A stretch of DNA of 64,000 nt, from positions 186,001-250,000 of the forward strand of contig JADZEE010000001.1 of NCBI GenBank assembly GCA_020850735.1, in the 5' to 3' direction. Position 1 is the stretch's first letter, and each line of letters starts with the position of its first letter. Shown here piece after piece: positions 7,593 through 13,375 of the stretch. Both the position numbers and the translations under genes were made by a program. The stretch comes from Gammaproteobacteria bacterium. Lineage in GTDB: Bacteria > Pseudomonadota > Gammaproteobacteria > JADZEE01. Under the pieces are notes generated by a model, which was given only the letters and a program-made list of their open reading frames with translations, ran no database searches and had not been told where the DNA came from.

Positions 7593-10139
7593 TTACGCGT
7601 CGGTGTCGAGCACCGCCGCGAGTTCCTCGAGCAGCGCCTGGTCGTGCGCCGAGGTGGACTTGCGGGCGACGTCGGCGCTGCGCTTGATACGGTCCGAGAT
7701 CTCGATCTGCTCCTTGATCTTGTCGCGTCCCAGGGTCGAGCTCTGCAGTCGTTCCTGTTCCGCGATCCATTCCTCGAGCTCGTTGCGGAACACGTCGTCG
7801 AGCTTGCCCTGACTCTCGTAGGTCCGTTCCAGGCGTTCTTCGTTGGCGCGCTGGCGCGCCTCCACGTCGACCCGCGCGCGCTCGGCCTGCTCGAGTTGAC
7901 GCGCTGCTGCCGCGGCACGCGCTTCCACCGCTTCGATTTCAGCCCGCAGCGCGCTTTCGCGGCCGCTGGTTTGCGCGGCGGCAGCGACGGATCGCTCCCG
8001 CTCGGTGGCCAGCACGGCGCGCTGCGTTTCGAGCTCGCGCTGTGCCTTTTCCGCGGCCTCGCGTGCTTTCTGCGTTTCAATTCGCGCCGCCGCAATGCGC
8101 TCCGCTTCCTTTTTCAGGCGCAGTCGTTCGCGCTCAATCTTGGCGTATTCGGCGGCGCGCACCTTGTCGTGCTGCTGCTTGAACTCGCTGATGATGTTTT
8201 CAGCTTCGGCCTGCGCGGCCTCGCGCGCGGCCTGCGCGGCCGCCCGTTCGCGCCGGGTCTGCTCGAGCTCGTGTGCCGTGCGGGCGAACTCGGCTTCGAG
8301 CTTGCGCCGCTCGGCGGCGAGGGTGCGGCGCGCGGACTCCTGCAGCTCTTTCTCGCGCTCGTTCTGCTCCGCGAGCAAGCGCTCCGCCTCTGATTCGAGC
8401 GCCTGTTCCTTGCGCAGCGCCTCCTCGAGGCGGCGATGGGTGTCCGCGGATTGCGCCTCGAGGCGCTCGCGCTCGCTTGCGAGGTTGACTTCAGCCTCGG
8501 CCTTGAGACGCTGAATGTTCTCGATCTCCTCGGTATTACGTCGATACACGTCCTGCAACCTAGCCTCTTCGGCCTGCATGCGTGCCGCGGCTTCGGCATG
8601 CAGGCGCTTGATGCGTTCCTCTTCCGCGCTGCGCCGGCGTTCCGCCTCGGATTCGGCGCGCTGCTTCGCCACCTCGATCTCGCCCTGCAGCCGCTGCGCC
8701 GCCCGCAGCATCTCCTCGGCCTTGCGCGCCTGGGCCTCGACCCGTTCGCGTTCGCTGCGCAGCTTCTCGGCCACGAATCTCTCCGCCTCGCGTTTGGCTT
8801 TCTCGGCCTCCTGCTTGAGCCGCTGGGCCTCGGCAAGCTGCAGGGACGCGCGGGCGAGCTCGGCCTTGAGCGCCGAGGCTCGCACTTCTGCGTCGAGATC
8901 CTCGTCCGCGTCCCGGGATCTGCGGTCGGCGGCGCTGACCGGCTCCGATTCGGGTGCGACCGGCGCGGGCGCCGTGGGGGCGGCCGCAGTGGCGGCGGGC
9001 GGCGGCGACGTGGTCTTCGGCGTCACGGGCGGCTCGGGCGCGGCTGCGGCCGCAGGCGGGGCGGGTCGCGCCTGCGCCGGTTTGACGTCGATTCCGGCGA
9101 CGCAGCCGGCATCGACGTAATGGGCGTCGAAGCCGCGTTCGGTCAGCAGGAAAGCGGCCACCGAGCTGCGCCCACCGCTGTCGCAGTACGCCACATAGGC
9201 GCGCTGCGGATCGAGCTCTTCGGACTTCAGACGCAGCAGATTCAGGGGCACGTTGACGCTGTCCGGCAGACCGTTCTCCCGATGTTCCTCGGGCTGACGC
9301 ACGTCGAGCCACACCGCACCTGCGGCGACGAGCTGGCAGGCCTGCTCGTAACTCACCGAATGCAGCACGGGCTTTTTTATCAGCTCGATGAAATCCTGTT
9401 TGGTCAGGCGCACGAGCTCACCGTCCGTGAGCATGCGCACGCTGGCGTTGCGGCGCGAATCCGCCACCAGCGCCTCCTCGCCGAAGCTGTCGCCGGGGCG
9501 CAGCTCGGCCAGGCGGATCTCGTTGCTGCCACTGCTGGTCCTGCGCGTGACCTCGCAGCGTCCGCGCTGAACGATATAGTAGTAGTCACCCGGATCGCCC
9601 TGGCGTACCACCACGTCGCCCTGCTTCATTTCGACCGATTCCATCGTGTCCAGCAGGCGCTGGATGTTGGAGGGCGGCACACGCGAAAACAGCTCGGACT
9701 GGAGCAGTGCGGTAAGCCAGTCGCCGCCGTCGTCGACCTCGATCTCGGTGACCTCGATGGCCGCCGCCGGCGCGGATGTCTTGTCCTCGATGGTGAGTAG
9801 TCTTTCGAGCAATCCGCGATCGACGCGCAGCACGGTCACCGGTGTGCGTGCCCTGGCCGAAAGCTGCCGGGGCTGCAGCTGCGCGAGAGCGTTGAAGGCT
9901 GGTCCGGTGCCGCCTTCTACTTCCTTGATCAATTGATCGTCGGCGTACAGATCGAGGTGGCCCTCGAGGAGATAAAAGGAGTAAGCGTCGCGGTCACCCT
10001 GCCGGAACACGTACTCCTTTTTCTTGAATTGAAGGACGTCAGCGCCCTTGAGCAGCTGGTCCTGGTGTTTGGGCGGCAGGCTGTTGATGGGAACCAGCAG
10101 CCGCATCAGGTCGTGAAAACGCTCGTGGAGCTCGGACAT
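7593..10139 (-). CDS. cNMP-binding x2 / rhodanese / long coiled-coil protein (paralogue A)
   Basis: The protein has 848 residues, with no signal peptide and no membrane span. Domain order: a first cNMP-binding-like beta-barrel (about 15-115, with FRQGDRDAYSFYLLEG but a degenerate phosphate cassette); a second, better conserved one (about 140-260, with QGDPGDYYYIVQRGRCEV and the cassette FGEEAL at 219-224 followed by RRNAS); a rhodanese domain (about 265-345) whose active loop CDSGGRS keeps Cys319; an Ala/Pro-rich linker (about 352-402); then some 400 residues of Glu/Arg/Ala-rich heptads to the end. The combination suggests a cyclic-nucleotide-gated or redox-gated filament or scaffold, but no function is known to me. 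It is a full-length paralogue of the protein at 10844-13375. Confidence 0.85.
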   Translation of the reverse strand: MSELHERFHDLMRLLVPINSLPPKHQDQLLKGADVLQFKKKEYVFRQGDRDAYSFYLLEGHLDLYADDQLIKEVEGGTGPAFNALAQLQPRQLSARARTPVTVLRVDRGLLERLLTIEDKTSAPAAAIEVTEIEVDDGGDWLTALLQSELFSRVPPSNIQRLLDTMESVEMKQGDVVVRQGDPGDYYYIVQRGRCEVTRRTSSGSNEIRLAELRPGDSFGEEALVADSRRNASVRMLTDGELVRLTKQDFIELIKKPVLHSVSYEQACQLVAAGAVWLDVRQPEEHRENGLPDSVNVPLNLLRLKSEELDPQRAYVAYCDSGGRSSVAAFLLTERGFDAHYVDAGCVAGIDVKPAQARPAPPAAAAAPEPPVTPKTTSPPPAATAAAPTAPAPVAPESEPVSAADRRSRDADEDLDAEVRASALKAELARASLQLAEAQRLKQEAEKAKREAERFVAEKLRSERERVEAQARKAEEMLRAAQRLQGEIEVAKQRAESEAERRRSAEEERIKRLHAEAAARMQAEEARLQDVYRRNTEEIENIQRLKAEAEVNLASERERLEAQSADTHRRLEEALRKEQALESEAERLLAEQNEREKELQESARRTLAAERRKLEAEFARTAHELEQTRRERAAAQAAREAAQAEAENIISEFKQQHDKVRAAEYAKIERERLRLKKEAERIAAARIETQKAREAAEKAQRELETQRAVLATERERSVAAAAQTSGRESALRAEIEAVEARAAAAARQLEQAERARVDVEARQRANEERLERTYESQGKLDDVFRNELEEWIAEQERLQSSTLGRDKIKEQIEISDRIKRSADVARKSTSAHDQALLEELAAVLDTDA

Positions 10140-10265: not shown

Positions 10266-10472
10266 TCAGGCATCTAGGTCCGGAATCAGCATGCTCTTGT
10301 AGCGTTCGATCTGGTCCTTGAGAAACAGCTTGCGCTTTTTCAGCCTGCGCAGCTGGAGCTGATCGACGTGCACCGCCTCGCTCAGGCGTTCGACGACGTC
10401 GTCGAGCGCCCGGTGCTCGAGCTGGAGTTCCTGCAGCCGGGCCTTGATTCTCGTGTTGCGCTCGTCGTCCAT
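10266..10472 (-). CDS. YdcH-like (DUF465) small coiled-coil protein
   Basis: This 68-residue protein begins MDDERNTRIKARLQELQ. It is a single amphipathic helical hairpin, ending LRRLKKRKLFLKDQIERYKS. The central LKK.KL.LKDQI segment is the hallmark of the YdcH/DUF465 family of short proteins with unknown function, common in proteobacteria. The upstream extension of the frame to 10655 is Arg/Pro-rich and looks non-coding. It lies between two divergent paralogous cNMP/rhodanese/coiled-coil genes and is read in the same direction as the left one, 126 bases from it; as a coiled-coil peptide it could interact with them, though this is only positional inference. Confidence 0.8.
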   Translation of the reverse strand: MDDERNTRIKARLQELQLEHRALDDVVERLSEAVHVDQLQLRRLKKRKLFLKDQIERYKSMLIPDLDA

Positions 10473-10843
10473 GCAGGTCGTCCTGGCGGCTGCGCCGCGA
10501 CCGGGACCCGGTACGTTCGGGGCGCGGTGCGCTGCCGGGAGCCGCCGGCCGCAGCGGCGCCATAGTCTGCCGCGCGGGCGCCCCGCGCGCCATGGCCGTG
10601 CAGGCATGCCGGGCGATTTGCCGCCGGGCACACCAAATGTCAGGAGAAAATCCAATTCGAGTCAATAGCTTATGATTTTTGAAGAACTTGCGTGATCACA
10701 GTCACAATCGCTCGTCAGGATCGTGGCGCGGTAAAATTACATTGCTTTACTGTTCGCGTCCCCGTCCCGTTGCCGCCCGCTGCGGTGACGGCCCCCGGCC
10801 CGGGGGCCGGCAGTGGCGAACGATCGGCCCGCGAGAGGACTGC
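10473..10843. other. 371-base divergent intergenic region
   Basis: This gap separates the leftward ydcH-like gene from the rightward paralogue B. The middle, about 10630-10760, is markedly more AT-rich than its surroundings and is the likely promoter zone; the outer parts are GC-rich leaders. On the minus strand TTGACT (10665-10660) could be a -35 for the ydcH-like gene. The plus strand holds the CRP-like site listed separately, and a GAGAGGA ribosome-binding site at about 10832-10838 before the ATG of paralogue B. I see no further gene. Confidence 0.5.
10691..10706. promoter_or_regulatory. CRP/Vfr-like binding site candidate
   Basis: CGTGA-TCACAG-TCACA matches the CRP half-site pair TGTGA-N6-TCACA at 9 of 10 conserved positions with the exact 6-base spacing. 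It lies in the AT-rich core of the divergent gap, 138 bases before paralogue B, whose product itself carries cNMP-binding-like domains. Binding is inferred from the match only. Confidence 0.45.
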
Positions 10844-13375
10844 ATGTCAGGTATGGTGGTTCGAGACATCGATCAGTTCGAAACAGCGTTGCGCCAGCTC
10901 GTGCCGCTGAATACGCTGTCGCCGGCGCAGTTCGACCGGATCATGCAGCAGTCAGCATTGCTGGAATTCCGCAGCGGGCAGCACATTTTTCGCCAGGGCG
11001 ACCGCGACGATCACTCCTTCTATCTGCTCGAAGGCGAGATCGAGCTGCTCGCCGACGGTGAGCGGGTGCAGCACATACGTGGTGGTACGGAGCGGGCGGC
11101 CCGCGCGCTCGCGCAGCTCCAGCCCCGGCAGATGTCGGCCAAGGCGCGCGGCAAGTGCACGGTGCTGCGCGTGGATTCGCGCCTGCTAGACGGTCTCGCC
11201 CGCGCTCCGGAGGCGCTTGACGACGCCCTCGCGGTCGAGGTTCACGAGCTCGACGGCGGCGACGACATCGACTGGATGACGCGCATGCTCCAGTCTGCGC
11301 TGTTCGCGCAGGTGCCGGCGGCGAATATTCAGCGCATTTTCAGTTGCATGGAAGCGGTCGAGGTCAAGGCCGGCGACGCCGTCATCCAGCAGGGCGCGAC
11401 CGGCGACTACTATTACATCATCCGCCAGGGGCGCTGCGCGGTGACACGCAAGACATCGGCTGGCGGGCCGCCGATCGTCCTCGCCGAGCTGCATCCCGGT
11501 GACGGTTTCGGCGAGGAGGCGCTCATCGCCGACGCGCGGCGCAACGCCACGGTCACCATGCTCAGCGACGGCGAGCTGATGCGGCTGCACAAGGAGCACT
11601 TCGTGGAGCTCATCCGCGACCCGCTGCTCACCAGTGTCCGTTTCGCGGACGCACGGGCCGCGGTCGCCGCCGGTGCCATCTGGCTGGACGTGCGCTTCAA
11701 CGACGAGCATGCGCGCGCGGCGCTGCCGGGCAGCTTGAATCTGCCACTCAACGTATTGCGCCTGCAATGCGAGCGCCTGCCACGCGACCGTCGCTACGTC
11801 GTCTACTGTGACAATGGCCAGCGCAGCTCGGTGGGCGCCTTCCTGCTGGTCGAGCGCGGTCTGGACGCCGTTTACGTCGACGGTGGTGTCGGCCGGGAGC
11901 TGGACGGTGTCGCCACGGACCTCGAAATCATCACCGAAGTGCAGGCGGGCAAGGTCATTGCTTTTCCGCCGCCGTCGCTCGCGAGCGGACCGGTACCCGT
12001 ATCGCAGCGCTCGGAGATCGAACGCGAGTCATTCACGCCGCCGCCGGTGCGCGTCGACGAGGGGCAGGCGACGCTCGAAGCCGACGTGCGTGCGGAGGCG
12101 CTGCGAGCGGAGCTCGCGCGCGCCAACATGCAGCTCGAGGAAGCGAGGCACCTGGAAGCGCAAGCGCAGGCCGAGCGCCGGCGCGCCGAACGCGAACAGG
12201 CGGCGAAGTTACGCGCGGAGCGGCGCAAGCTCGCCGGGCAGGCGCGCAAGGCGCAGGCGATGCTCCGGGAAGCCCAGCGCATGAAGGTCGATATCGAATC
12301 CGCCAAGCGCGCGGCGGACGAGCAAGTGCAGCAACGCCGCCAGGCCGAGGAGGAGCGCATTCAGCGCCTGCACGACGAGTCCGAGCGGCGCCTGCAGGAG
12401 GAGAAAGCACGCCTGGAGCAGGTCTACCGGTGGAAGTCCGAGGAGCTGGCCCGCTTCCAGAAGATGAAGGATGAGGCGGAGGTGAAACTCGCGGATGAGC
12501 GCGAGCGGATCGCCTCGCAGGCGGAGGAAACACGACGGCGCCTTGCCGAGGCTCGCCGGATCGAACGCGAGGTCGAGCAGACACGGCTCGCCGCCGAGGC
12601 GGAAGCCGAGCAGCGCCAGCAGCGCCAGCTCGAGCTCGAGCAGCGGCTGAACAGCGAGATCCGCACGCGCATCGACAGCGAGCGGCGCAAACTCGAAGCG
12701 GAATTCGCGCGCAATGCCGAGCAGCTCGAACTCGCCAGGCGGGAAAAGATTGCGGCCGAGGCGGCCCGGCGCGCCGCGGCCGAGGAGGCCGAGCGCATCA
12801 TTGCCGAGTACCGGGAGTCGCACGCACGGGTGCGCGCCGCCGAAGAGGCGAAGATCGCCGCCGAACGCGAACGCATTGAGCGGGAGGCCGCCGAGATCGG
12901 CGCGCAGCTCGAGGCGGCGCGACTGGCGAAGGCCGAGGCGGAAGCGGCACGGCTCGAGGCGATGCGCGTGCTCGAGGAACAGGCCCGAGCGGCCCCGGCG
13001 GTCGCCGAGCGCGACACGGTTGCGGCGGACGAGCTGCGCGCGAGCATCCAGGCGATAGAAGCGGAAGTCTCGCACGCAGACGCCGAGTTGCGCGCCGCGC
13101 ACGCCGCGCAAGCGGCCAACGAAATGGCGATGGAGGAGCATCTGGCCGCGGCCGAGGAGATGCTCCGGCACGTGGAAGTCGAAATCGCCGACTGGCAGCG
13201 GGAGCAGCACGAGTTCGAGAGCTCCGCGGCGCAACAGGAAATTCTCGCCGGCCAGCGCGCCTACATGGAGCGCATCAAGCTGCGTGCGCAGGATGCCAGG
13301 CGCCGCGCCAAGGAACACGACCAGAGTCTGCTCGACGAGATTGCCGCACGGCTGCGACATCCGGACGAGGATTGA
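10844..13375 (+). CDS. cNMP-binding x2 / rhodanese / long coiled-coil protein (paralogue B)
   Basis: The protein has 843 residues, started at the ATG at 10844, which has GAGAGGA 6 bases upstream; the frame extends further up but without coding character. Domain order is the same as in paralogue A: a first degenerate cNMP-like barrel (about 20-118, FRQGDRDDHSFYLLEG), a second barrel (about 143-262) with QGATGDYYYIIRQGRC and cassette FGEEAL (222-227) plus ARRNAT, a rhodanese domain (about 265-350) with active loop CDNGQRS and Cys322, a linker with FPPPS near 374 instead of the Ala/Pro linker of A, and a coiled coil from about 410 to the end. Both keep the putative catalytic Cys and the second ligand cassette, so both may be functional. 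The gene stands alone on its strand, next to a CRP-like site. Confidence 0.85.
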   Translation: MSGMVVRDIDQFETALRQLVPLNTLSPAQFDRIMQQSALLEFRSGQHIFRQGDRDDHSFYLLEGEIELLADGERVQHIRGGTERAARALAQLQPRQMSAKARGKCTVLRVDSRLLDGLARAPEALDDALAVEVHELDGGDDIDWMTRMLQSALFAQVPAANIQRIFSCMEAVEVKAGDAVIQQGATGDYYYIIRQGRCAVTRKTSAGGPPIVLAELHPGDGFGEEALIADARRNATVTMLSDGELMRLHKEHFVELIRDPLLTSVRFADARAAVAAGAIWLDVRFNDEHARAALPGSLNLPLNVLRLQCERLPRDRRYVVYCDNGQRSSVGAFLLVERGLDAVYVDGGVGRELDGVATDLEIITEVQAGKVIAFPPPSLASGPVPVSQRSEIERESFTPPPVRVDEGQATLEADVRAEALRAELARANMQLEEARHLEAQAQAERRRAEREQAAKLRAERRKLAGQARKAQAMLREAQRMKVDIESAKRAADEQVQQRRQAEEERIQRLHDESERRLQEEKARLEQVYRWKSEELARFQKMKDEAEVKLADERERIASQAEETRRRLAEARRIEREVEQTRLAAEAEAEQRQQRQLELEQRLNSEIRTRIDSERRKLEAEFARNAEQLELARREKIAAEAARRAAAEEAERIIAEYRESHARVRAAEEAKIAAERERIEREAAEIGAQLEAARLAKAEAEAARLEAMRVLEEQARAAPAVAERDTVAADELRASIQAIEAEVSHADAELRAAHAAQAANEMAMEEHLAAAEEMLRHVEVEIADWQREQHEFESSAAQQEILAGQRAYMERIKLRAQDARRRAKEHDQSLLDEIAARLRHPDED

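Follow-up and report, generated by a model that had tools for sequence, protein, structure and literature searches.

The window studied here, a stretch of 64,000 nucleotides (64 kb), contains two paralogous genes for cNMP-cNMP-rhodanese-coiled-coil proteins. The target gene (10844–13375, plus strand) encodes a protein of 843 aa with a degenerate cNMP domain, an intact cNMP domain, a rhodanese domain and a long coiled-coil tail. Divergent from it is a gene for a small DUF465 protein of 68 aa (10266–10472, minus strand; Pfam PF04325, 2.4e-13), and downstream of this, in the same direction, is the paralogous gene (7593–10139, minus strand), which encodes 848 aa. The coiled-coil tails of both paralogues were judged by eye. 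The true intergenic gap is the 371 bp between the DUF465 gene and the plus-strand gene (10473–10843). As the two cNMP/rhodanese genes are separated by the DUF465 gene, on which an initial sequence-only reading was silent, the operator described below belongs to this gap. That reading, which had placed it in the divergent promoter of the cNMP/rhodanese pair, was correct in that the gap is divergent, but the gap is not shared by that pair alone.

The operator, CGTGATCACAGTCACA (10691–10706, plus strand), is of the CRP type and was assigned from a pattern match, from eight aligned loci with identical half-sites and from its enrichment upstream of homologues. It reads CGTGA-N6-TCACA and has nine of the ten bases of the CRP consensus (a TGTGA-N6-TCACA-like palindrome) at a gap of 6, exactly as the sequence-only reading had described it. 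The AT-rich island in which that reading put the site is also borne out, since G+C is 0.41 in 10650–10749, the lowest 100-base stretch of the profiled region. An in-frame extension of the plus reading frame to a TTG at 10679 would cover CGTGATCACAGTCACA. However, we favor the start at 10844, because L066 and other relatives have a frame-closing stop downstream of or within the site region, or shortly above the start. The predicted leader of the plus gene contains a strong, G+C-rich inverted repeat (10786–10812, plus strand; 13-nt arms, 92% complementary, 1 nt apart), about 30 bp before the start codon.

The lone match of CGTGATCACAGTCACA in the window has no significance by itself. Chance alone predicts about one match of this quality in a stretch of this length: when one mismatch is allowed, the window has 1 against 0.93 expected, and 58 of 100 shuffles had at least one. 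Across all 170 contigs of the assembly (4.99 Mb), the pattern occurs at 31 places at this threshold, compared with 19 for a reversed control pattern. Of the 29 places with exactly one mismatch, 7 differ by a C at the first position, more than by any other change, and this is the variant seen in CGTGATCACAGTCACA. As judged from the comparison of loci, the significance of CGTGATCACAGTCACA comes from its conservation.

Candidate regulators in the genome

The sequence-only reading presupposed a CRP homologue in the genome, and two proteins score above the cut-off of 266 of the NCBI CRP model NF008732, with 315.6 and 333 bits. They are among six proteins whose HTH_Crp_2 domain scores above its cut-off, two of which are of the CRP type and two of which have FNR-like cysteine-rich starts. 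Both CRP copies can be aligned with Vfr and E. coli CRP and have CSREMVGRVLK in the recognition helix. The genome also has three class III cyclase domains. In the two main site-bearing groups, 19 of 20 tested genomes have a CRP over the cut-off; the single exception is a contig-edge fragment.

It is unlikely that another protein of the CRP/FNR family, or a CRP relative that responds to c-di-GMP, binds the site instead of cAMP-CRP. The six HTH_Crp_2 proteins, including the two with FNR-like starts, offer candidates for such a role, and one CRP copy has M and N where Vfr has two threonines near the hinge. However, an FNR site is TTGAT-N4-ATCAA, and the consensus found here fits CRP instead. Clp of Xanthomonas is a CRP relative that answers to c-di-GMP, but both CRP copies are far closer to Vfr and E. 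coli CRP than to 3iwz (title: catabolite activation-like protein), which is presumably Xanthomonas Clp. We favor cAMP-CRP as the regulator.

Elsewhere in the genome, no site with at most one mismatch was found at the other cNMP/rhodanese paralogues (contigs C119 and C112; stretches L064 and L065). Of the genome's two exact CRP sites (L262 site 1501 and L263 site 1501), one precedes a gene for an FHA-EAL protein by 113 bp and the other a gene for a TPS-domain secreted protein by 122 bp. Two one-mismatch sites, 32 bp apart, are at or close to the beginning of a PAS-GGDEF gene (L269). Together these sites suggest possible links from cAMP to c-di-GMP.

Conservation and position of the site

We examined 78 homologue loci from named genomes, nine of which have a DUF465 gene beside an oppositely facing cNMP/rhodanese gene (L066, L071, L072, L085, L076, L079, L086, L099 and L134; L086 and L099 are near duplicates). 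These nine were picked by gene content and not by the presence of a site. In each of them the corresponding gap holds a CRP-type site that deviates from the consensus by one base at most, so that the site, when the same intergenic region is compared among relatives, is kept in nine of nine loci with this arrangement, as the sequence-only reading required. In the window and in eight of the nine, CGTGA-N6-TCACA is oriented toward the gene without DUF465; L134 has the reverse orientation. The ten half-site bases are 100% identical in eight aligned loci (the window and seven relatives), compared with 36% for the spacer, 27% for the upstream flank and 31% for the downstream flank. An 8-bp palindrome within the operator, GTGATCAC, was dropped as the relevant element in view of this poorly conserved N6 spacer. 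L086 and L099 have a second CRP-like site in the DUF465-side gap, 43 bp from the first, or about four helical turns.

In the tree, the window's minus-strand protein groups with the relatives' DUF465-side copies (support 100/99). The plus protein is placed, without resolution, beside other copies rather than within the clade that the same-side copies of the relatives form; its orthology with these rests on synteny and the partner gene. One record titled as a Klebsiella pneumoniae MAG (L078) has a protein that groups with those of uncultured gammaproteobacteria and is probably mislabelled.

The position of the site points to the plus gene. L066, L071 and L072 have TTGCTTTAATT downstream of the site, and in an ungapped, site-anchored comparison a putative extended -10 element of the window, TTGC-TTTACT (10742–10751, plus strand), is in register with it; the window has TTGCTTTACT, one base closer. 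From this element, transcription is predicted to start near 10758. The distance from the site centre to the putative -10 is 47.5 bp in the window and 48.5 bp in L066, L071 and L072, compared with 49.5 bp at lac. The operator centre would thus be at -59.5 to -60.5, as predicted from a conserved but weak -10, and the class I reference is -61.5. The putative -10 has no recognisable -35 and its offset from the site is 2 bp short of that at lac. Since a generic sigma-70 scan of the gap found no promoter and did not pick up the element at 10742–10751, the class I promoter is one that we infer. CGTGATCACAGTCACA is mainly a site of the plus gene, about 60 bp upstream of the predicted start. TAAAAT (10732–10737) was considered as the -10 of a class II promoter and dropped, as a centre at -41.5 would need it 4 bp closer to the site.

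Since the gap is divergent, both directions could be reached from the site, and the DUF465 start is 218 bp from CGTGATCACAGTCACA. The site could therefore act mainly on the DUF465/minus-strand operon, or repress it, rather than activate the plus gene. We regard this as distinctly improbable. The distance from the site to the plus gene start is steady, at 115–145 bp in eight of nine rows (the 184 bp of the ninth, L099, were counted from an estimated start with an error of 42 bp), and the conserved bases at -10 distance are on that side. Moreover, homologues without DUF465 also have the site upstream.

Activation of the plus gene by cAMP-CRP remains the preferred reading, and the site recurs in a wider set of homologues. 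When the 300 bp upstream were searched in 77 homologues, 15 carried a site at the threshold of one mismatch, 3 of them an exact one. Among 29 permuted half-sites the average was 0.45 (largest 2), other spacings gave 0–2, and dinucleotide shuffles gave a mean of 0.48 (largest 2). When all 1024 palindromic half-sites are compared at gap 6, TGTGA comes out as the most enriched; no other gap works. A second set of 106 regions came from further genomes of the class; without 2 that were too short and 16 that overlapped the first set, 88 remained, 14 of which have the site at the same threshold (5 exact), against an average of 0.83 for permuted half-sites (largest 3) and a shuffle mean of 0.69 (largest 3). 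These 14 regions span only 9 families and are therefore not fully independent. In both sets it is a minority of homologues (15/77 and 14/88) that carry a site within about 300–360 bp, and thus the site marks subgroups. That CGTGATCACAGTCACA is a functionless chance resemblance is very improbable: though one match per window is expected and the 31 places in the genome compare with 19 for the control, this reading is contradicted by the conservation of the site at all nine loci of the same arrangement and by its enrichment in two homologue sets.

The target protein and its proposed control

The plus protein is a likely cyclic-nucleotide receptor, as judged from its domain features. Its cNMP profile matches PKG/PKA regulatory domains. 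The second cNMP domain has an intact phosphate-binding cassette, FGEEALIADARRNATV, with the pocket motif FGEEAL...RNATV, in which E and R are nine apart; the E-to-R spacing in the PKA pocket served as the reference. The first domain is degenerate (LAQLQPRQ, without GE). In the second domain, N follows the key arginine of the nucleotide pocket, and therefore both cAMP and cGMP remain candidate ligands.

We consider it quite likely that cAMP-CRP activates the plus gene. The genome's CRP/Vfr-type protein would bind the 16-bp operator, and CRP with bound cAMP, about 60 bp upstream of the predicted start in a class I position, would recruit RNA polymerase. Production of the plus protein, which has a working-type nucleotide pocket by its sequence features, would then rise. 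This protein would be a second receptor of the same messenger and might buffer cAMP, or signal to a partner via its rhodanese and coiled-coil regions; both roles are guesses. Since the site is kept and its target encodes an apparent cyclic-nucleotide-binding protein, cAMP probably regulates production of a second receptor for itself. The sequence-only reading is supported in this form by the conservation of the site and the CRP genes, with its feedback loop as a putative consequence, but equal control of both cNMP/rhodanese genes is not, because the position of the site and the bases downstream tie it to the plus gene.

A variant of this arrangement is found in the Thiohalobacter/Thiogranum group, where, downstream of the site, 11 bp separate a TAAG-like element from a GCCGATA element. 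The pattern used for such sigma28 promoters was TAAAGTTT-N11-GCCGATAA. A first, loose criterion was discarded because five shuffles gave 9–25 hits; under the strict one, with the window left out of the count, 17 of 77 and 5 of 88 regions were found, compared with shuffle means of 0.26 and 0.27. In 12 of the 17, a CRP site with no more than 2 mismatches is present as well. In this group the commonest distance from the site centre to GCCGATAA is 49.5 bp, compared with 36.5 bp in E. coli aer. Since the aer CRP site is at -49.5 (PMC2859248), the sites of the relatives would be at about -62.5. In L084, L097, L100, L103, L107, L118 and relatives, this sigma28-type promoter with its CRP site is 80–100 bp upstream of the cNMP/rhodanese gene. 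FliA is over the cut-off in all 12 tested genomes of the sigma28 group and absent at the cut-off from 3 of 8 of the DUF465 group. The genome of the window encodes FliA. For the window gene itself the idea of a sigma28 promoter was dropped, since a scan of the window's upstream regions gave no hit even under a lenient criterion. More tentatively, cAMP-CRP might control the cNMP-cNMP-rhodanese family in many gammaproteobacterial families as a feedback or relay module, in part through a sigma28 promoter with the site near -62.5, so that cAMP would determine the amount of its own non-transcriptional receptor and connect it to motility. We regard this broader picture as possible rather than probable.

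Comparison with known systems

Like the lac class I promoter, the loci described here have the operator centre about 50 bp from the -10, which is putative here (47.5–48.5 bp in the window, L066, L071 and L072 versus 49.5 bp); unlike lac, the plus gene has a weak putative -10 element and no recognisable -35. The Thiohalobacter/Thiogranum relatives resemble E. coli aer and trg in combining a CRP site with a flagellar promoter. CRP activates the sigma28 promoters of aer and trg from -49.5, and sigma28 dependence is lost when the CRP site is moved to -61.5 in E. coli (PMC2859248). The relatives' site would be near -62.5 instead, and the window gene has no sigma28 element. The sigma28 variant would be an exception, provided by nature, to the E. 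coli spacing rule.

A literature search, with subscription journals mostly outside its coverage, returned reviews and a paper citing CbpA, and among the papers listed no prior description of a link between CRP and cNMP-rhodanese proteins. The closest known case appears to be the control of cbpA (PA4704) by Vfr in Pseudomonas aeruginosa. There Vfr reportedly controls a second cAMP-binding protein, whose first cNMP domain is degenerate and whose second is intact. The plus protein likewise has a degenerate N-terminal and an intact C-terminal cNMP domain, with a CRP-type site upstream of its gene. In the plus protein a rhodanese domain and a coiled-coil tail follow, which may set it apart from CbpA, and its gene differs in being paired with a paralogue and DUF465. 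The literature describes CbpA as a Vfr-controlled cAMP-binding protein (PMC7247823, PMC11139211, PMC3019171), and CRP as the only cAMP effector in most bacteria, with CbpA named as an exception (PMC11139211, PMC7247823). Our finding extends the logic of CbpA to a wider family. If likely cyclic-nucleotide receptors of a widespread family have a conserved CRP site upstream of their genes, the CbpA exception would become a common circuit, and the site-bearing genomes provide a short list in which this circuit can be examined.
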